Source: Melampsora larici-populina 98AG31
Taxonomy: Eukaryota > Basidiomycota > Pucciniomycetes > Pucciniales > Melampsoraceae
NCBI RefSeq assembly: GCF_000204055.1
Contig: NW_006768795.1
Span: 195,605-259,604 of the forward strand
Direction of reading: 5' to 3'
Length of the DNA stretch: 64,000 nt
In this document: piece by piece, positions 25,313 to 37,282 of the stretch
Numbering within the stretch: position 1 is the first letter of the stretch
Layout: each line of letters starts with the position of its first letter
Notes under the pieces: model-generated
What the model was told of the DNA's origin: nothing
What the model saw: the letters and a program-made list of their open reading frames with translations, nothing else
The model's database searches: none
Position numbers and translations under genes: made by a program

Positions 25313-25318
25313 CGAGTC
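25313..25318. repeat. Left target-site duplication of outer element B
   Basis: CGAGTC here is repeated at 37277-37282, immediately outside the TATGGAG...CTCCATA ends of element B. Confidence 0.8.
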
Positions 25319-25319
25319 T

Positions 25320-25325
25320 ATGGAG
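25320..25325. repeat. Left target-site duplication of inner element A
   Basis: ATGGAG, repeated at 31078-31083. These bases are also the terminal bases of element B, which shows that A jumped into the very end of B. Confidence 0.85.
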
Positions 25326-25435
25326 TATGGTGTCCCTGATGAGCGACCGAGGACCACCTTATGCGTTATGCGTTATGCGCTATGCGCTATGTGTGTGTAC
25401 TATGCGCTATGCGCTACATGCACTATGCGTTGAAC
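25326..25435. repeat. Left terminal repeat of A with heptamer array
   Basis: The inverted terminal repeat is followed by head-to-tail ATGCGTT/ATGCGCT heptamers (four in a row from about 25360, then two more after ATGTGTGTGTACT, then one after ACATGCACT). The heptamers are good candidates for transposase binding sites; this is inference from position and repetition. Confidence 0.8.
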
Positions 25436-25457
25436 TTGTACTGTGCCAAAATCGCAA

Positions 25458-25481
25458 CCGGTCAATTTTAGAATTGACCGG
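25458..25481. repeat. Subterminal 24-bp palindrome of element A
   Basis: Arms CCGGTCAATT and AATTGACCGG around TTAG, with one mismatch. A weaker counterpart (GGGTCAATTCTGAAATTGAT) lies at about 30893-30912 near the right end, so it is a shared subterminal structure. Confidence 0.55.
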
Positions 25482-25694
25482 AATTTTGATTTCATCGATC
25501 GACTCCCCAGCACAACCACCATCCTGAATTTTCTTTATCTCATCAAACATGTTATATGAGTTGTATCCGACTCGGTGGAAAACGGGGCCTGACCGAGATT
25601 TTCTCGATATTTTTCATCGGTCATTGTCTTGTTTTGCTCAAATTTGTCAATCTTGTATTCTTCTCCTTCACCGATTAAAAATTCCATTTCCAAA

Positions 25695-27321
25695 ATGCAG
25701 CATCAAAATATCGCTCAAAATTACTCTGATTGTGAATCTGAAGACAACGACAATCCTGTGTATCATCAAGAGATTGAAGAGCACACTATACACCAGTGTG
25801 TTGCAGCTGCGATTCAAAGAGATGAGATACTCTCACATCTTGATGGCATGGGGATCAAAATCTCACGTACGACTCTTACTCGCCGCCTTCAAACGTTTGG
25901 CCTCAGTACTGCCTACAATAAATTTTCACCTCAAGATAAAGCACGAGTAGAAGGACTCCTCATAGAATTCAATAAACGTGGCTATCAAAGGAAAGAAGCC
26001 ATTGATCAGATCAAGGGAGATACAGGTATTATGATCAATATGTATGATGTGCGCAAGATGTCCCCAGACTTGTCACTTAGCTGGAAGAAAGATGATCTCC
26101 AAACTGGACTAGTAGTCCCAGAGCTGCTGATTGAACAAATGGAATTCATAATACATGGTTCACATCGTGATACTGGGATACAACGCATGAAGAACGCATT
26201 GGCTGTATTACATAATATTCGAGTCAACCGGAACACAGTCCAAACTTTACTTCAACAAATTGACCCAGAGGGTGTTGCTGCACGACATCAAGGGCGATTG
26301 AAGAGGCGGGTATTTCATGTTGATGGTCCAAATCATGTCTGGTCTAGTGATGGTCATGATAAACTCAAGCCTTTTGGAATTACAATTTATGGTTTCATTG
26401 ATGCTTGGTCTAGAAAGGTCTTGGGATTATATGTGGGTGTTAATAACAATGATCCACGAAGAATTGGATATCACTATCTGGATATTGTTGAAAAACTTGG
26501 AGGAATTCCTCAAAAGACTTGCACAGATCATGGAACTGAGACCATCAAGATGGCTGGCTTTCAAATGTCATTAGCTCAAATTTATGGTAGTTTTACTCCT
26601 GAAGAAGCTGAGTCAGCTCATCTCTATACAACCTCTCAACGCAATCAGAAGATTGAAAGTCTTTGGTCACTTCTACGCAAAGCAATTGGTTTTGTGATTC
26701 ATGATGAGATAGAGGCAGCTATACATATGGGAATCTATGATCAATGTGATCCTCTACAGAAGTAAGTTTGTCCCCTTCTTTCATGATGTTTTTTTGCTTA
26801 CCAAGCATTCAATTTTTAGGATGCTCTTCCTGTATCTTTGGATCCCAATAGTACAAAAACTCTTGGATGACTACACTCAAATAAAGAATACTTCCCGGAC
26901 TCGAAAAAATAAGCAATCAGTTCTTCCAACAGGTACAATTCCTAATGTAGTCTACTACTCGCCTGAAGGGTTGAATGGTATAGATGGCCTGATTCCAGTG
27001 CCCAAATCAACAATTCAAGCTCTCAGACAGGAACATTTCCCGGATTCAGATATACTATTTCAAGTCACGCCAAAAGCCTTCCAAGAACAAGTTGCCAGTG
27101 CAATTAGATGCTTAGAAATTCCACCTGATTATATCTCAATCAAAACTGTCTGGCATGTCTTTCCTGCTATTTTGGCTGTTCTCAGGCGGCTCAATGTGGA
27201 TGTAAATGAAGCAAGATTGATGTATAAACATCATAGAAACTTTGTCCCTCAGGTAGAGATTGGGGATGGAGATAGATTAGCACCTATGATTGATATAGCT
27301 CATCCAAATGTGCTAAACTAA
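25695..27321 (+). CDS. DDE integrase-core transposase of element A (open)
   Basis: Exons 25695-26761 and 26820-27321 with a 58-bp GTAAGT...TAG intron; joined 1569 nt, 522 residues. The N-terminal third has helix-turn-helix-like segments (EIEEHTIHQC, SRTTLTRRLQTFGLST). The retroviral-type catalytic core spans about residues 200-345, with the first Asp in HVWSSDGHDKLKPF, the second in KTCTDHGTETIKM and Glu in QRNQKIESLW. A C-terminal region (PTGTIPNVVYYSPEG...) follows the intron. The ATG is supported by the element B homologue, which starts MQPQN against MQHQN. No stop interrupts it, so it could still be active. The core resembles fungal integrase-core proteins of IS3EU-like transposons. Confidence 0.88.
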
Positions 27322-27567
27322 TGTTTTTTTGTTGTTCTCTGTAGTTTGCATAGTTTGTTGCTTGATTTTTGAACTCCTGAACTCAACATTTTTGATCAAT
27401 CAGAATGTATTTCTTGGCTCAAGCAACAAGTTTTTATATGATGATGAAATTCATAAGAGACCAAATTTACACAGAGTTTCTTATTCTTTGAATGAAGGTA
27501 TATATGAGGCATATATATTAGGATGTACAAGTCGAGGTAAATTTATTTCATAAGAATAATTTTCAAC

Positions 27568-30240
27568 TCAATTCTCACCATCATCCACATGATCAATCAC
27601 ACCTGATTCTTCTTCCGATTCAGAGGTGCCACTTCTAGACTCTTTGTTTTGAATGTTAATATTGTTATGTTTCAATGTAATCTGCTTGAGTGTCTTGTCA
27701 TACTTGAAAGATGCTGGATTCAAATCCAGTGCAAAGCAAGCAGTCCCACAGATATGACTTGAGATAAATGCGTCGATTCCATCTTGACGTGGGTTATCCC
27801 ATGACCACTTGTGCCTAAATAACCATTCTTATGTCTAAGTTTGTTATGTGAATGAATATACCAAACAAAATCAAAAACTTACCTGAGGTCTATCATCCGC
27901 ATTCCAGTCAGTAATCCATCTTTGAATTTGATGTTTGAAACCAGTGCTTGACCTCGGAAGTAGTCATAGGTGAAATGCACAAATGCGCTCAAACAATCTG
28001 ATGATATAGATTCCGGCTGTGAAGGGCTGAAATCTCGTGTGGTACATATCACTTCTAGTGGATGATACAATACTTCTTCAATAAGATAAGTGATATATTG
28101 TGCATGCGTCCCAGATGGCTAAAGAATCATATTAAAAACAACCTGCAAAGATACATGTATCAGCTAGAGTAAGAACCACCAACGAGAAAAGCACATACAC
28201 GTAGAGTGTTTAATAACAACTTTTGATCGTTTGTCACATGTGTAGAGAAAAACATTGCAATCTTGAATCTTTCAAGTAGGCAAGAGGTCAGATGATACAC
28301 TGCTAATTCTGTCAAGTAAGCTTCCTCATCCTGATGTTCTTCATTCAGGATCTCCTTTACCACCACACTTTGAGATTTTCCATCGATGAGCAAGGTTCCC
28401 TTGTAGCTATATCGCCTTGTTCCCTTACCAATCAAGTAATCTTTTTCAATATCCTGCATTGCGTACCATCGGCCAAATACGAGGTCCTTGAGAGATGGAT
28501 CAAGACTTGAATCGTCTGATTGAGCAACAAGTGAAATTAAAACTCCGTTTGACCAAGGTAATGGTTTTTGCTCATCGCGAATAAAATCTTCAACTTCAGG
28601 GAGGACATCCCCAAAACTTCGAATCCATGAAGGCTCCATCAAAGATAAACGTCGTCCTACATAGTTGGGAAGTGTTAATCCTTTATCTTAATGAACTGAA
28701 ATACAAAAGAAACACTTCTCACCTATCTTCAAACGCAGTTGTAGAGCGTCACTCCATGAAATCAAAGTGATTGTCTGATCTGGACCGGCAGGATGATTTT
28801 CAGGGAGAGGAATTGCGTATTCCTGAGGAAAACTGGCAGTCGAAGTATCATATGTTGCATGTGCTGCTACAGTCGACTCTATAGAGATGTTGAGAGGGTC
28901 AATACCTTGATTTGCAAGTTGATATATACGTCTGATAGCAAGTTTTACAGAGTTTGAGAGATCAGCTGTCCACAAAGATGGTGTATCAATATCTGACAAG
29001 ATCATCAAAGTATTATCAGTGTCAGTAAAGGTAGATTGATGGTGAGAGAAAGTAATGTACCTTTGGCAGCCTGAAATCCCACCTGATTGATGGCTGGAAC
29101 CGGTTTTGGAAAGTCAACATATTCTTCCAATTCCATGCTTTCCTCACTTTCTTCACCTTCTTTGCTTTGGTCTCCTTTTTTGCTTTCCTCGCTTTCTGAA
29201 TTTGTATCGGATTGAGAACTTGTTGCCAAGATGGAAGCTTAGTAGGTTGCAGCCGCAAATGAAAGGGTGATGACTAGTGGGCCTTGTTTGCGTTTACCAG
29301 GCTGTGGAGTGTCGTAAGTTATGATCTGGTCCTTGAGGTGATCTCCAGAAAGCTTTGCGTTATTGACACCAAGGGAATAGAAGGTGCTATCATAGGGTGG
29401 GAGATCAGGATATAGAAGTCGGTCGGTCTTGCGAGATTTGGTCAAGGGTTGAAAGAACCCTACTGAATTTTTGCAAAAGTGTTCGGTCGCAGATTGAGCA
29501 ATTTCAAACTCCCAGTGATGATCTGAGAAGTCGATATCATGAGTATAGTCCTGGACTCCATGCCTTCTTGCGCCACATTGAGTGTTGTATCAAAGCTTGA
29601 CCACAACTCGATGCTTAACAGGGCCTGCTGGTGGGTTTTTTTTCTTAGTAGTTCGTCCTATGGCAGTTGATCAAGGAGTGTTCTTCTCATTTTTCACATC
29701 AATACGATCCATACGGACTCTCTTTGCTGTGCTTTCACCATGTCTGTAAACCTCAGCGTGCTCCAGTAGAGTTGGAGTTGATCCTGATGACTTTGGTGGA
29801 TTTGGTGCAGATTGTTTAATAGGTCGAGAGACTGGGCTTGGGGTGGGGACAATCCGATTGCTGAGGATTTGAGCTGGTGTTTGAAATCGGCTTGTGTTGG
29901 TAGCTAGACGGTGAGGTAGGTTGATTGTGGCCCTGATAGTGTTGATCGAGGCAGGGCTAAGCTCTTCAGCTCGAAGGGGTGTGTTGGGTAGGGGAGGGGG
30001 CTGTTGAGTTGATTGGCCTGACTTTCGCTTGCAAGGTCCACACATATCTGTTGCATTCCGTGGGAGAGTTTTCCCACAGCCATCCTTTCAGAACTTGAGT
30101 GGAGGGACACTGCTCGGATTTTCTGCAGCCTGAAGAGCATCGTTGTATAAGCACGATCCACAAATGGGAGTTTTAATTGTATCCATGAAAGGGTACTCCT
30201 CTGTGCAGGTGGCACATGTTGGAAAATCAGTAGAATCCAT
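27568..30240 (-). pseudogene. Alpha-kinase-like cargo gene of element A (decayed)
   Basis: Starts MDSTDFPTCATCTEEYPF at 30240. N-terminal CxxC pairs (CATC, CGSC, CGPC) suggest zinc-binding modules. After a Pro/Ser linker come an ordered middle region (STFYSLGV, VITLSFAAATY) and a kinase-like C-terminal half: VVVKE (candidate ATP-site Lys), EEAYLTELAVYH, SAFVHFTYDYFRGQALVSNI and the zinc signature SHICGTACFALDL, ending at 27568. The AF.HFTY, H-x-C-x3-C and VKE blocks are those of alpha-kinases (MHCK/eEF2K/TRPM7 type). The Asp of the family's DLQG motif is Asn here. Stops lie at 30088-30090, 29671-29673, 29590-29592 (TGA) and 29239-29241 (TAA). Introns are shared with the copy in element B. Confidence 0.78.
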
Positions 30241-30934
30241 TCTATCAATCAAAAGAAACATATGGAGGTCAGCCTGATAATATTATATTATAGAACAAAA
30301 ACAAACAAAATGTGTGCAATAAAAAATACATACTTGAGAACAGGTGGTATTTTTTCTGATTGATTACTTCTCTGAAGAGTCAATTTCAGAAATAATTGAG
30401 TGAATCAGAATGATAATAGAATTTTTTCATCTTCAAATGGCCTCTTCAACCACTGGTTAGGTTAAAGCTCAAGCACAGAGATTGATGAAAGAGCTGCGGC
30501 GCAAGTTAGGGTGTGAGGAGGGGTGTTCAGACTCATGAGTAAAAGGTGATGGGCTGGTTTTTGCATGGAGAGCAAATGAATAGCGGGTGGGGTGTTTGTT
30601 TGTATTGGTATTGAAAAAATGCTGTATTGGATTTTGTAGGACATCAATCTAAACGCCAAATTTGCTGAGGTTCCCATTTCTAACCGAATTGGGATCCTCA
30701 ATTTAACAAGGTTCTCATTTCTGACCAAATTGAGATCCTCGAAAATTTGACACTAAGAGTTGACTTGAAAGATACTGTGATGTTGATATGAGATCGATTG
30801 TTGATGATGTTGATATGAGATCGATTGTTGATGAGGTAATTGTGAGGTGAGGTGAGTATGAGGAGTTGATCGATGATTACATTTGAAAATCGGGTCAATT
30901 CTGAAATTGATCAGTCGCGGACGACATCAGTACA

Positions 30935-31077
30935 ACTACATATGTGTGCACAATGCATAGCACATAAGCACACAGCGCATAGTACACACACATAGCGCAT
31001 AGCGCATAGCGCATAACGCATAGCGCATAACGCATAACGCATAAGGTGGTCCTCGGTCGCTCATCAGGGACACCATA
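30935..31077. repeat. Right terminal repeat of A with longer heptamer array
   Basis: Reverse complement of the left end over 61 bp, but the heptamer run is longer (seven in a row against four on the left) before the GTGTGTGTAC spacer. The difference points to slippage or unequal growth of the array. Confidence 0.8.
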
Positions 31078-31083
31078 ATGGAG
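31078..31083. repeat. Right target-site duplication of element A
   Basis: ATGGAG, second copy. Reading on from here (ATGGAGGACGAG...) resumes the left terminus of element B. Confidence 0.85.
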
Positions 31084-31145
31084 GACGAGAGTTGTGACCA
31101 AGGACCATGTCTGAATCCTTATGCATTATGTGTTGTGCTTATGCC
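31084..31145. repeat. Left terminal inverted repeat of element B (continued)
   Basis: GACGAGAGTTGTGACC, then AGGACCA and TCTGAATCCTTATGCATTAT. It matches the reverse complement of the right end (about 37214-37269) with a few C/T differences (for example ATG[T/C]GTTGTGC). The heptamer-like TTATGCA/TTATGCC words are fewer and more decayed than in A. Confidence 0.75.
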
Positions 31146-31995
31146 TTAAGCACTGTGCTTGCCAAGTGTGAGAAATTCTGTACAGGTGTGGCACCACCGT
31201 ACGAAATCCCACCCTTTCCATTTTGAACATCGCTCCTGGATTCCACCAGCTCCGACTCCGACCTCAACAAACTACTCCAGCCAGGGATGCCAGCACCTGA
31301 CCGGATTCAGGGTTGTCTCTCTGGTGGCCTTTTGATGCGTACAACCGGACTTGTAACATCATCGGGTTAGGCAGAACTTCGATTTCATCAACAGAACCTC
31401 AACCCTCAAGTTGATTGGATCCGCATCTTGGTCGATTCCAAGGATAAATGGATTGACACCATCCATTTCTGAACACAGTAAGTACAACTTTTATCGGTGT
31501 TCCTTGATCCAGCTGACCCAATTATGTTTACAACTTTTGTAGCATGTGTCTTTGAAGGCATCTTCTTCAATCGAATATTCTCTTAGCTCGAGTTTTAAGC
31601 CTCCTTCATTAGGAATGGTGTCCTTTGTTTTTAGTGTGATTTGATGATAGGCGACGACATTCCAATCCCTGGCTTCATATCAAGGGAGTCGGTTATGGTA
31701 GATTAATGTAAGGTTATGAGAGGCTTTTGCGTTTCTTATATACTTGGACTTGCCTTCAATTCATTTGAAAACTTTCCCCCACCTGGAAAAACACATTGAG
31801 GTAAGTTTTCATCTCATCCATGCTTCGAGCGTTCATTGGATCATATTCGTATAACTCATCTTTACATTTGTTTTCTTGGGCCTATCCATTCACTTCTTAT
31901 CTCTTTCCCATTCTATCATCTCTATCTTTACAAACTTATCGCAAACAAACTTTCAGACATCTCAAGTTATCACCACCTTTGGGTTTTATCTCAAC

Positions 31996-34516
31996 ATGTC
32001 AACACCACTTCCGATGTGTGACACTTGTACTGAAGAATATCCTTACATGGATACCAAAACTCTTCCAACATGTGGAGCCTGCCTACATGATAACGCTCTA
32101 GATTCAGCCGAGGATCGTTCAACAGTACCACCTTTGAATTACTGCAAGGATGGGTGTGGAATGACATTACCTGCCAAATTTCATGAAGGCATGTGTCGCC
32201 CCTGCCAGCGAAAAATACAACAGTATCAAGAAAATCAGCAGACATCTCATTCAACCAAGCTGCCTGTCCTTGTTGATGAGGTTGACCCAGCACGATTATC
32301 AGCGATCCAATCAAGCTTCACCCTACCTCAGCTTCCATCACGGTCTCGTAATCCAGTCATGCCTGTTCCCCCTGTCGCTGGCTCCTCTAGACCAAACAAA
32401 CGCCCAGCTCAAAACCCACCACCATCCCAAACCTCCTTGCTAGGACCGGATCGTGAAGAAGCTTATCAACACGGAGAATCAGCAGCTAAGAAGATCTGCT
32501 TGGATAGGATTCAGGAAAACAAGAAGAAATCACGTCCAACCGCAATTGGACGCATGCATAAGAAGAAGATTGAAACTCTGATTGCCCCAGCTTTGAAATC
32601 AGTTGCAGTTAAACTCAAGTATAATTTACAAAGTGGTTCAAAGTCACACAGTCTCCCACAGCATATGCACGACATCGATTTCACTGATCCAGATTGGGAG
32701 ATCAAGATCATGGAAGCAGCCATCAAACACTTCCAGAAAACCTCATTGGGAATATTTCCCCCTACAAAAAGAGACGTAGATCGATTACCTGCTCTTCCCG
32801 ATTTCAATTCTTCATTTTATTCTCTTGGTGTCCTTGGCACCATGATGTCAGGAGATCGTCTTCAACAAGCTATTATATCTCCCAATCGTAATCCACGTCA
32901 GCAATCGGTCCCAGGGCCTCTAGTGGTCACTCTTTTTTTTGCCGCTGCAACCTACTTGTCTTTCATGAATCCACCCAGCTCAAACTTTGGCAGTGATTCC
33001 GAAACAAAAGATTCTGAACCCAAAAATGATAGTAGTCAATCGGAGTCAACTCACAGTAAGTCGTTTTGTTAGATCGTCTTCTTGGGGTTCTACTATGGAC
33101 TGATTGATTTTCTTTTCCATTCAATCAAGTTCAACCAACCAACACATCTTCAATTGTTGCTCTTCCCACACCAAAGTGGCCCACTATCATAGCAACAAGT
33201 GTATCACTGGCAGTTAAGCGGATACATCAGCTTGCTGATCGAGGCATTGACCCTCTCAAAGTTCCAAATTCCTTGGTCGTGGCTGCTGAAGATCAATATG
33301 ATATTGCAAATACACCTTTCCCTTGAGAAATCGGAACTCCTCTCCCAGATGGTCATCCTGCTAGTGATGGTCAAATTATCACAACCATCTCATGGAGTGA
33401 TGCTTTACAATCGCAACTTGGGATAGGTCAGTTCAGATATATTTTGTTTCATTAATCTTCAATCAAAATTAACAACTTGGTTTTGATATCATAGGACACC
33501 AGATCGCCTTATTTTCCAGTTTTTCAATTCGATCATTTGGTGGTGTCTTGCCAAGTGTTGAAGATTTGGCAAGACCATTGAGATATAGCATCCCTTGGAG
33601 CAACGCTATACTTATGGCCCTTACAAACTCAAACACTCGGTCTTCCCTGGAAGAAAACTCTCAACCTCTTGTTTTTGGTCAGTGGGGGACTTTAGCAGCA
33701 GTCGAAGATCAGTTCTTTGGTGAGGGGAAAAGGCATCGCTCTTTTAGGACAACCTTGTATATTGATGGAGGATGTCGTAAAGTCGTGGCTAAGGAGATAA
33801 TCACTGAAGGATGTGGTGATCAAGCCGCCTACCTTAAGGACTCAGTGGTTTACCATCAAACTTCATGCCTGCTTGAAGATTGCAAACTGGATATGTTTGT
33901 GCAATACGATGTCACCATTGCTCAAAAGAGAATCTTGAACTCTTTACAGGTGGGTCTTGCATATATATCACAATCCTTTAAAATATTGATACTGATCATA
34001 TAATTATTGTAGGTTGTTTTCAATATGGTCATGATTCAAGAAGACAATTATTATAAAGTCGAAGAGCTCCTTGATCATTCACCAGAAACAATCCCTACGA
34101 TGATCGATGATACCCTGAAAGCACCGATTTCATTATTATCTGATGCTTTGAATGCGTTTGGACATTACATATATGATTACTTCAAAGGCCAAGCACTTAT
34201 TTTCAATATCAAGACAGTCAATGGTCGCTTGACTGGCATGCGTATGGTTGATCGAAGGTTAGTCTTATATCACTATCCCATGATAAGATAAATTTTTGAC
34301 ATACATTCTAACAGGTTTCAGTGGTCCACAAGCAACAAGCTTCCAGATGAGATCCACACTTTTAAGCTGGAGCATTTATGTGGAGAATGCTGCAAGGTTC
34401 TCAAATTGAAATCAGCCGACTTTGAGTATCCCACAAGTGATGATAGGGCTGATAGTGGAATACAAGCGGCTATTGATCCAGTTCTTGAAACAATTGAACA
34501 CACCAGATTGAATTAA
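31996..34516 (+). pseudogene. Alpha-kinase-like cargo gene of element B (one visible stop)
   Basis: Exons: 31996-33055, about 33130-33426, about 33495-33950, about 34014-34258 and about 34315-34516. The N-terminus (MSTPLPMCDTCTEEYPYMD) has CxxC pairs CDTC, CGAC, CKDGC and CRPC. It is followed by a Pro-rich linker, KSVAVKLKYN and SSFYSLGVLG...VVTLFFAAATYLS, then the kinase-like half: RKVVAKEII, AAYLKDSVVYHQTSCLLE, NAFGHYIYDYFKGQALIFNI, GMRMVDRRFQW and LEHLCGECCKVLKL. The His and H-x-C-x3-C zinc ligands are kept; the DLQG Asp is Asn, as in A. The only disruption I see is TGA at 33324-33326 (A has CAG-Glu there). If the stop is avoided by an intron or readthrough the gene could be nearly intact. 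Confidence 0.78.
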
Positions 34517-34939
34517 AGAAAAGGGCAGGAAAGTCGCATTCAGGGACAACACCCCTGATAACCCTTCATTTGACGCTTTTGAAACTCACTCATGATTGAT
34601 CTTTTGTCCAAAATTTATTCCCTGATGTTTGTAGACTAATATCTACTCCAAAAGACAAAAAAACAAAACTTGTTTCTACTATTCTTGTACTTCAGTCGAG
34701 ATGAAGACAATACAAATAAATGAGCTTGTGATAAAGAATCTTATGAAAAAGGAAGATTGAAAAGTGCGGAATTCAAATACAATTGATGTGAGTTTTTGTG
34801 CAACAACTAACATCAATTGGGACAGATGAAATGTCATCCACAATATCTTTTCTTCTTTAAACACATCTGGAGTAGAAGTACAGATACACTGAAAATAAAT
34901 CCTCCAAAACAACACCCTGAATTGAAACTTTCCTTGAAA

Positions 34940-36566
34940 TTATGCATCCGGTTGATGCCCAACAATAATTGGTGCCAGTCGATGTTCAACCCCATCATCA
35001 ATGTTGGGAACAAATTCTTCTTGATGCCTACAAACTAATCGCGCTTCATTCACATCAACATCAACCAGTTTCAAAGCCTCTAATATTGGTTGAAAAACAA
35101 TCCAGACAGTTTCAAATGTGATGCTTTCGCGTGGGATACCCAAGCATCGAAGAGCACTGTCAACTTGTTGTTCAAAGCGCTTTGGAGAGATTTGAAACAG
35201 AAGTTCGGCATCAGGAAAATGTCTTTGTCTGAGAGCTTGGATGGTTTCTTTTGGTACAGGAATTAGGCCTTGTATGCCATTGTATTCCTCAGGTGACGAG
35301 TAAATGGCATTAAGAATAACTCCAGTTGGAAGACTCGAATTTTGATTTTTTCAAGTGCGTGAGGTGTTCTTGATTTCAGTGTAGTCGTCCAGGAGTTTTT
35401 GCACAATGGGGATCCAAAGATGCAAGAAAAGCATCCTAAAAGAGCAGGTTGCACATAAGTATCAAAGAAAATGAAAAGTAAGATTGACTGACTCACTTCT
35501 GCAGGGGATCACACTCATCATAAATTCCCCTCTTTACACCGTCCTCTATCTCATCATGAATATTGAAACCAATTGCTTTGCGTAGCAGAGACCAAAGACT
35601 TTCAATCTTCTGATTGCGCTGAGAGGTTGTATAGAGATGAGCTGATTCTGCTTCTTCAGGAGTAAAACCACCATAAATTTGAGCCAATGACATTTGAAAC
35701 CCAGCCATCTTGATGGTCTCAGTTCCATGATCTGTGCAAGTCTTTTGAGGAATTCCTCCAAGTTTTTCAACAATATCCAGATAGTGATATCCAATTCTTC
35801 GCGGATCATTATTGTTGACACCAACATACAAACCCAAAACCTTTCAAGACCATGCATCAATGAATCCGTAAACTGTAATTCCCAAAGGTTTGAGCTTGTC
35901 ATGACCATCAGTAGACCAGACATGATTTGGACCATCAACATGAAATCGTCGCCTCTTCAATTTCCCTTTACGTCGTGCCTCTACCCCTTCAGGATCAATT
36001 TGATGGAGTAAAGATCTAACGGTGTCTCTGTTGACTCGGATGTTATGTATGACCGCCAAGGCATTCTGCATGCGGCGGTAACCAGTGTCGCGATGAGAAC
36101 CCGCCACTATGAATTGCATTTGTTCAATGAGATATTCTGGAACTACCAGCCCTTGTTGAATACCGTCTTTTTGCCAACTAATAGATAATTCTTCAGATAT
36201 TGTGCGCAGATCATACATGTTGATTGAAATCCCCGTATCTCCCATGATCTGAGTAATGGCTTCCTTCCTTTGATACCCTAGTTTGTTGAATTTTATCAAG
36301 TGTGCTTGAACTACTGATTTATCTTGCGGTGAAAATTTACTGTAGGCAGTACTGAGACCATACGTCTTAAGACGGCGAGTCAGAGTAGTCCGGGATGTAG
36401 TGATACCCATGCCTTCAAGATGCGAGCAGATCTCTACTCTTTGCATCCCAGCAGCAACACATCGGCGAATGGCCTCTTCTTCGATCTCTTGAAGATATGT
36501 TGGATGATTGTGATTATCGTCGAATTCCTGATCGGAGCTGGTTGGATCTTCGTTTTGAGGTTGCAT
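34940..36566 (-). pseudogene. DDE transposase of element B, two premature TGA stops
   Basis: Homologue of the element A transposase, clearly related along its whole length, with the same intron position (donor GTGAGT after CAGAA, about 35494). It starts MQPQNEDPTSSDQEF at 36566 and ends HRLAPIIVGHQPDA at 34940. DDE residues are present (TDGHDKL, CTDHGTE, NQKIESLW). TGA at 35844-35846 follows FIDAWS where A has AGA-Lys. TGA at 35351-35353 follows NTSRT where A has CGA. No frameshift was found, so inactivation looks like point mutation only. It must have been mobilised by another copy or decayed after insertion. Confidence 0.85.
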
Positions 36567-37204
36567 TGTATGTGTAGAAAGACCAAAGAAGGAGACAATT
36601 ACACAACATAGGATATTTGGAGTAACAATCAAACCACTACGGCAGAAGAACAAATATCCAAGGACAAAATATTGGATGACTGGGAAAACAGATAAATGAG
36701 CACTTGGCAACACATTTTATACAAAAAATGATGTCTCAAACTGCGAAGAAAGTGGAATGAAACTCCTGATGAGATTGTGCAGCAATTTTTTGCCGGACCG
36801 AAGAAGGAGTTACTGCGTCAACCGGTTAGAGTCTGCAAGCAACAAGTCAAGCCTGCAAGAAAAATTCATTAAAAGGCGGCGAGTCAACCGATTCTTAATC
36901 TTCAAACGAGGTAGAGCAATCAATCGATTGTTTGTCTCGATCGATTGTTTGTCTAAATTTAAAAGCTATTAAACGGTCGGCTGGTCTAGTGATAGATTTG
37001 CTCGCCCACCAAGGCTTATCGGCTTATATTTTGATACCTCACTAGATAGATCGCTCATAGAGATTTTTAGGAGGTCAAACAATGCCAACTCAATCGATCA
37101 ATGCTGTTGCTTCAGCAGAGATGCGACTAGTTCCAGATGGGTCTGGGAGGACAGCACATCGGGTATGTAGTGCATATGCATATGTCGCGCCGTTACATAG
37201 TGCA

Positions 37205-37276
37205 AAAGGCATAAGCACAACGCATAATGCATAAGGATTCAGACGTGGTCCTCGGTCACAACTCTCGTCCTCCATA
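37205..37276. repeat. Right terminal inverted repeat of element B
   Basis: Ends ...GGTCACAACTCTCGTCCTCC then ATA at 37276. Reverse complement of the left end split between 25319-25325 and 31084 onward. Confidence 0.8.
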
Positions 37277-37282
37277 CGAGTC
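37277..37282. repeat. Right target-site duplication of element B
   Basis: CGAGTC, matching 25313-25318. Confidence 0.8.

Follow-up and report, generated by a model that had tools for sequence, protein, structure and literature searches.

IS3EU DNA transposons of rust fungi have been described as carrying an alpha-kinase gene beside their transposase gene (Kojima 2025, PMC12730594). According to that paper, families from rusts end in TAYGG..CCRTA and duplicate 6 bp of their target, and Melampsora larici-populina is among their hosts. IS3EU elements in general are recognized by TA..TA termini, terminal inverted repeats longer than 30 bp, a 6-bp duplication and a DDE transposase related to those of IS3 and IS481 (PMC12730594, PMC10045372). 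Here we analyze a window of 64,000 nucleotides from M. larici-populina 98AG31 (contig NW_006768795.1), which contains two IS3EU elements, E1 and E2; both have the ends TATGG..CCATA and are flanked by perfect 6-bp duplications of their target. A previous sequence-only reading of this window had noticed the gene facing the transposase in both elements and knew of no description of such a pairing; the pairing itself is in fact already published and is not new. What we add is a branch of the gene that apparently encodes a pseudokinase kept by selection, a measured share of alpha-kinases lying beside IS3EU transposases, and a group of related elements bearing a SNF2-family gene.

An alpha-kinase gene fixed in IS3EU elements

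In each of the two elements, a transposase with an integrase core converges on a gene whose start is rich in cysteines and whose end resembles alpha-kinases (Table 1). Both genes stand where the sequence-only reading had put them, each facing its transposase, and the blocks it had singled out, AF.H..YDYF.GQAL, V(V/A)KE and the zinc motif H-x-C-x3-C (HICGTAC in E1, HLCGECC in E2), are all present. The profile search that it had proposed matched in both elements: exon by exon, the Pfam Alpha_kinase profile (PF02816) scores 28.3 bits in E1 and 23.8 bits in E2, for a cut-off of 21.3. The annotated E1 protein, MELLADRAFT_65055 (P0007 below), matches this profile over its full length (185/185 positions, 90.3 bits, E 2.1e-25), which rules out a gene unrelated to kinases. 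A sequence search of solved structures with the same protein retrieved MHCK-A (E 0.0014-0.0051) and TRPM7 (E 0.0075) in matches spanning the active site, and the carboxy-terminal lobe (C-lobe) blocks can be aligned with these two kinases. By sequence homology, the window gene is a member of the alpha-kinase family. CxxC pairs are visible in the translated amino terminus of both genes; the Pfam double zinc ribbon gave only a sub-threshold match in this cysteine-rich region, and this in a relative.

A search of the whole genome (98.3 Mb, 243 contigs) yielded at least 147 Pfam alpha-kinase matches, which merge into 144 loci, and at least 91 transposase loci; these figures and the pairing counts below are minimum values, since scoring covered 150 of 243 candidates in one list and 112 of 137 in the other. 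A transposase relative lies within 3 kb of at least 21 kinase loci, in convergent orientation in all 21 cases. Within 12 kb, at least 42 of the 144 kinase loci have a convergent IS3EU-type transposase, five have one on the same strand and one has a divergent one, these orientation classes not being exclusive since one locus may fall into several. Whatever the orientation, a transposase is found within 12 kb of at least 44 of the 144 loci, when about three would be expected under uniform placement.

Kinase and transposase also diverge together: their protein distances correlate across 19 loci (Mantel r 0.90, with 0/5000 permutations as high), in a set that leaves out L014, which has too few transposase columns, and includes the near-duplicates L009/L010, L017/L018 and L019/L020, which inflate r. 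Clean ends together with a complete 6-base duplication were recovered by a strict scan in 4 of 20 fetched cuts, one of them E1, and in 0 of 100 shuffles. A relaxed scan, positive at 9 of 20 loci, was not used, since 15 of 100 shuffles were also positive. Inverted repeats flank both genes in 10 of the 20 cuts, a count without a null.

On the strength of the convergent layout, the co-divergence and the clean ends with target duplications, the alpha-kinase gene is a fixed core gene of the IS3EU element and no random capture, as had been proposed from the two window copies. Whether most homologues of the gene lie outside such elements, a point raised in the same proposal, depends on which are counted: in kinases of the window type, seven of eight loci lie within 9 kb of a convergent transposase (the eighth, on contig C38, has none among the matches listed), while 100 of the 144 alpha-kinase loci have no transposase detected within 12 kb, the pairing figure being a lower bound. 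Alpha-kinases are reported to be expanded in rusts and absent from Microbotryomycetes (PMC4469406). The suggestion that the element explains such expansions stands for part of the loci: some of this genome's alpha-kinase expansion is carried by IS3EU elements.

Active-site residues and selection in the window sublineage

Fourteen of the 20 fetched transposase-linked loci keep the canonical D-x-Q and LTD motifs, five, namely E1, E2 and three others, have N-I-K and LTGM instead, and one (L027) has EIS and LSQ; the window type, or type B, and L027, or type C, are over-represented in this set because one contributing search used a type B query. Across the eight loci of the window type, NIK and LTGM are found in 7/7 scorable cases and the lysine of the amino-terminal lobe (N-lobe) in 8/8, and the glycine-rich loop is retained in most copies. 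The replacements are from Asp to Asn at the catalytic position, from Gln to Lys, and from Asp to Gly at the second Asp; when aligned with MHCK-A and TRPM7, VVDIQGVDDLYTDPQ corresponds to VSNIKFKDGLLTGMR in E1. We take the first two replaced positions to be Asp756 and Gln758. In alpha-kinases, the catalytic Asp766 and Lys645 (MHCK-A numbers) have been termed invariant (PMC4876393); Asp766 corresponds to the second Asp, in LTD, and Lys645 to the N-lobe Lys, which binds the nucleotide. Judging from these residues, the window sublineage looks like a transposon-borne pseudokinase, predicted to be catalytically dead. The earlier idea that the gene product could modify host factors or the transposase becomes unlikely, as far as phosphorylation is concerned, for the two window copies, in which the phosphotransfer residues are replaced and stops are present.

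In a likelihood tree of the transposases, types B and C fall on one side of a branch with values 94/92 (below the star limit), so that one loss suffices for the transposase-linked set; type C is one long branch. This grouping agrees with a single ancient loss and later diversification. A tree built by the unweighted pair group method with arithmetic mean, which separates B from C, was set aside in favor of the likelihood tree. Twenty further kinase loci were scored, 19 of them without a transposase within 30 kb. Ten keep D-x-Q (one of them, L051, without LTD), nine (L049, L050, L052-L057 and L059), all without a transposase within 30 kb, have another residue where the catalytic Asp would align and are unlike the window type in sequence, and one is unscorable. 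Active-site decay is thus not limited to the window branch.

Selection was measured as the ratio of non-synonymous to synonymous rates (dN/dS), with bounds given as bootstrap ranges across codons. The exon cuts run from stop to stop and so include some intron residues at either edge, a bias of dN/dS towards 1; C-lobe rows E1 and L014 and N-lobe row L025 were left out of the pairs, and L018 replaces E1. For the N-lobe exon, two pairs of the window type gave 0.25 (0.12-0.43) and 0.45 (0.25-0.74), and two more, given below, have ranges that reach or pass 1; for the C-lobe exon, three pairs gave 0.20 (0.07-0.46), 0.42 (0.22-0.80) and 0.33 (0.15-0.56). In canonical kinases, six pairs range from 0.20 to 0.51 and one near-identical pair gives 0.89 (0.09-2.04). 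The transposases of E1 and E2 give 0.20 (0.12-0.28); that of E1 and its near-identical copy on contig C82 give 1.37 (0.18-2.03), with very few changes. Purifying selection thus seems to persist on the window-type kinase in most pairs.

We give about an even chance to the view that the kinase gene of rust IS3EU elements has become, in the E1/E2 sublineage, a selected pseudokinase acting as a non-catalytic scaffold or regulator. The gene has long been the second gene of IS3EU elements in rusts and most likely derives from a catalytically active alpha-kinase. In the E1/E2 sublineage, it has kept the N-lobe Lys and the zinc motif but no longer has the catalytic Asp, its Gln neighbor and the second Asp. 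The likely mechanism is then one without phosphotransfer: the protein would be anchored to DNA, to chromatin or to the transposase by its cysteine-rich amino terminus, and the dead kinase domain would hold a partner or compete with the active alpha-kinase of a related element.

Several points weigh against this view. The scaffold role is putative, and residue loss predicts inactivity while falling short of proof. Public homologue searches yielded 1, 3 and 4 proteins, so that no deep alignment was available and structure prediction failed for want of relatives: the AlphaFold model of P0007 (6 sequences) had a predicted local distance difference test (pLDDT) score of 34 and was discarded. As structure prediction was uninformative, the fold assignment rests on sequence profiles. 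A model of a canonical relative, P0003, reached pLDDT 44; its top two Foldseek matches are alpha-kinases (E 0.02 and 0.23), weak matches to which we give little weight, and nothing was found at E 0.001. As to selection, the N-lobe dN/dS of L014 and L034 is 0.52 with a range reaching about 1 (0.26-0.99), that of E2 and L030 is 0.51 with a range passing 1 (0.24-1.14), and several synonymous rates are near saturation, including those of more distant pairs. Finally, both window copies are broken by stops. When aligned to the E2 pieces, the E1 gene has five in-frame stops, four in the amino-terminal exon and one in the C-lobe exon, and the E2 gene has at least one. The C82 copy has two in-frame stops in its amino-terminal exon, and one stop is common to E1 and C82; E1 may therefore have moved without an intact kinase copy of its own. 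It may have been mobilized after damage to its kinase-like gene, via help in trans or a later start.

An alternative that we regard as rather unlikely is that most IS3EU kinases are active and phosphorylate the transposase, chromatin or silencing factors, the window type being a faded relic. The 14 canonical transposase-linked loci speak for activity, as does the canonical kinase of the 17-kb SNF2-bearing element described below. However, dN/dS is below 1 in most window-type pairs although every member shares the loss, and the window type has diverged into an E1-like and an E2-like branch, both retaining the Lys. Continued transfer of phosphate, or of some other group, by an altered active site of the window-type protein appears improbable: related folds include unusual enzymes, the Lys is retained and so, in most copies, is the glycine-rich loop, but in the catalytic segment other residues have taken the place of the Gln and of both acidic residues. 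Finally, a host alpha-kinase gene that was captured as a passive passenger and does nothing for the element would agree with the large number of alpha-kinases and the 100 loci devoid of a detected transposase, but it is made very improbable by the constant order and orientation across diverged elements, the co-divergence, the dN/dS values and the same layout in TET-bearing IS3EU families of other rusts (PMC12730594).

Nested elements and SNF2-bearing relatives

Table 1. Positions of the elements, target duplications and genes; positions are those of the window unless a contig is given
Feature	Position	Strand	Description
Element E2, IS3EU	25319..37276		TATGGAG..CTCCATA; left terminal repeat interrupted by E1
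E2 target duplication CGAGTC, left	25313..25318
E2 target duplication CGAGTC, right	37277..37282
Element E1, IS3EU, 5752 bp	25326..31077		TATGGTGTCCC..GGGACACCATA; nested inside E2
E1 target duplication ATGGAG, left	25320..25325		also bases 2-7 of E2
E1 target duplication ATGGAG, right	31078..31083
E1 transposase	25674..27321	+	integrase-core exon 25674-26765 and 3' exon in frame 26713-27321
E1 alpha-kinase-like gene	27568..30240	-	Cys-rich N-terminus, predicted pseudokinase domain, in-frame stops; MELLADRAFT_65055 covers its 3' part
E2 alpha-kinase-like gene	31996..34516	+	Cys-rich N-terminus, predicted pseudokinase domain, at least one in-frame stop
E2 transposase	34940..36716	-	pieces 36716-35844, 35843-35493 and 35350-34940; Pfam match
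SNF2-type IS3EU element	C28:349476-366574		17,099 bp; ends 21/25 alike; TGTGAC duplication on both sides

The presence of two elements with the same gene, already recognized from the sequence, can be made more precise: E1 is inserted at the target ATGGAG, 7 bp into the left terminal repeat of E2, a related element, and this nesting rules out two elements lying merely side by side. The terminal inverted repeats are identical in E1 (60/60 bases) and 57/60 alike in E2, counted after leaving out E1 and one duplication copy; the ends of E2 were found by hand. With their ends, inverted repeats of more than 30 bp and 6-bp duplications, E1 and E2 are IS3EU elements, their transposase being characterized by its Pfam integrase core. 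The E1 transposase matches the Pfam integrase-core profile rva_4 (PF24764) with 51.7 bits, and the open reading frame of its core exon is intact; the E2 transposase is 78% identical to it and has one internal TGA. Contig C82 carries a sister copy of E1 with 98.3% identity across window positions 25324-30961; similarity ends leftward at the element end, in an alignment that stops short of the right end. Just inside both ends of E1 (25359-25415 and 30967-31044), we observed inverted sub-terminal arrays of TATGCGT/TATGCGC-like repeats, which are possibly bound by the transposase.

A sister group of E1 and E2 carries a further gene. Of the 24 transposase loci more than 60% identical to a transposase on contig C28, 17 have a SNF2-family helicase (PF00176) within 12 kb, convergent in 17/17 cases, compared to 1 of the 67 other transposase loci. 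The two C28 SNF2 pieces match PF00176 with 94.8 and 98.8 bits. A convergent alpha-kinase is listed no more than 35 kb downstream of at least 11 of the 24 loci, and the 17.1-kb C28 element contains, together, a transposase, a SNF2 gene, a further gene and a canonical alpha-kinase. The further gene, situated between the SNF2 and alpha-kinase genes (L040:5661-8525), has frames of 152, 336, 124 and 389 amino acids; a Pfam search of the two longer frames gave no match, and the gene may be of the TET/JBP kind in diverged form, or of another kind. The word SNF2 is absent from the main text of Kojima (2025). A literature search for co-mentions of any two of IS3EU, SNF2 and alpha-kinase returned only that paper, for IS3EU with alpha-kinase, and PMC5295586, where SNF2 and alpha-kinase appear as separate domains in one wheat-rust table.

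As a more doubtful extension, we may hypothesize that rust IS3EU elements form a modular kit of transposase and signaling or chromatin genes, with the alpha-kinase as core and TET/JBP (published) or SNF2 as exchangeable third gene. The selected pseudokinase of the old sublineage might then be a decoy or dominant regulator directed against the active kinases of competing elements.

Comparison with known systems

Part of the rust alpha-kinase expansion is transposon gene content rather than host kinases. This attribution matters for genes that carry the public annotation of 'Alpha-type...' kinases, and it also touches one wheat stem rust alpha-kinase gene that appears in a list of genes under diversifying selection (PMC4150398). 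Our analysis contributes an example of a transposon-borne pseudokinase that is apparently under selection, highlights SNF2-carrying relatives, and makes testable the question of whether accessory proteins counter silencing or steer transposition. None of the literature matches listed, from a search restricted to main texts and mostly to papers outside subscription, concerns a fungal transposon alpha-pseudokinase.

The closest described systems are the TET-bearing IS3EU elements (PMC12730594), which share with the window elements the opposite orientation of transposase and alpha-kinase, the ends and the 6-bp duplications. They differ by a TET/JBP gene placed between transposase and alpha-kinase: the TET_JBP profile (PF12851) has no match in the window, E1 and E2 included, although a diverged gene could escape it, and only two weak, sub-cut-off matches elsewhere in the genome. 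E1 and E2 also have a kinase without the catalytic residues, a point not discussed for TET-bearing elements in the text of that paper available to us, and their sister group carries SNF2, unlike the TET-bearing elements as described in its main text.

With the alpha-kinase family at large (MHCK-A, TRPM7, eEF2K; PF02816), the window gene shares the full-length profile, the N-lobe Lys, the His/Cys zinc motif and an HFTY block. The family has the catalytic Asp and the Gln of DxQG and the second Asp, whereas the window type has Asn, Lys and Gly. ALPK3 is reported as a functional alpha-pseudokinase, its alpha-kinase domain being without detectable catalysis (PMC9698156), and in this it would resemble the window protein, a predicted pseudokinase. 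It differs in being a human muscle protein, outside any mobile element, with four named variant residues arranged differently. KDZ and other fungal TET/JBP transposons belong to other transposase lineages and carry another accessory enzyme, but they resemble the window elements in having a conserved accessory gene, which is thought to aid escape from silencing (PMC12730594).

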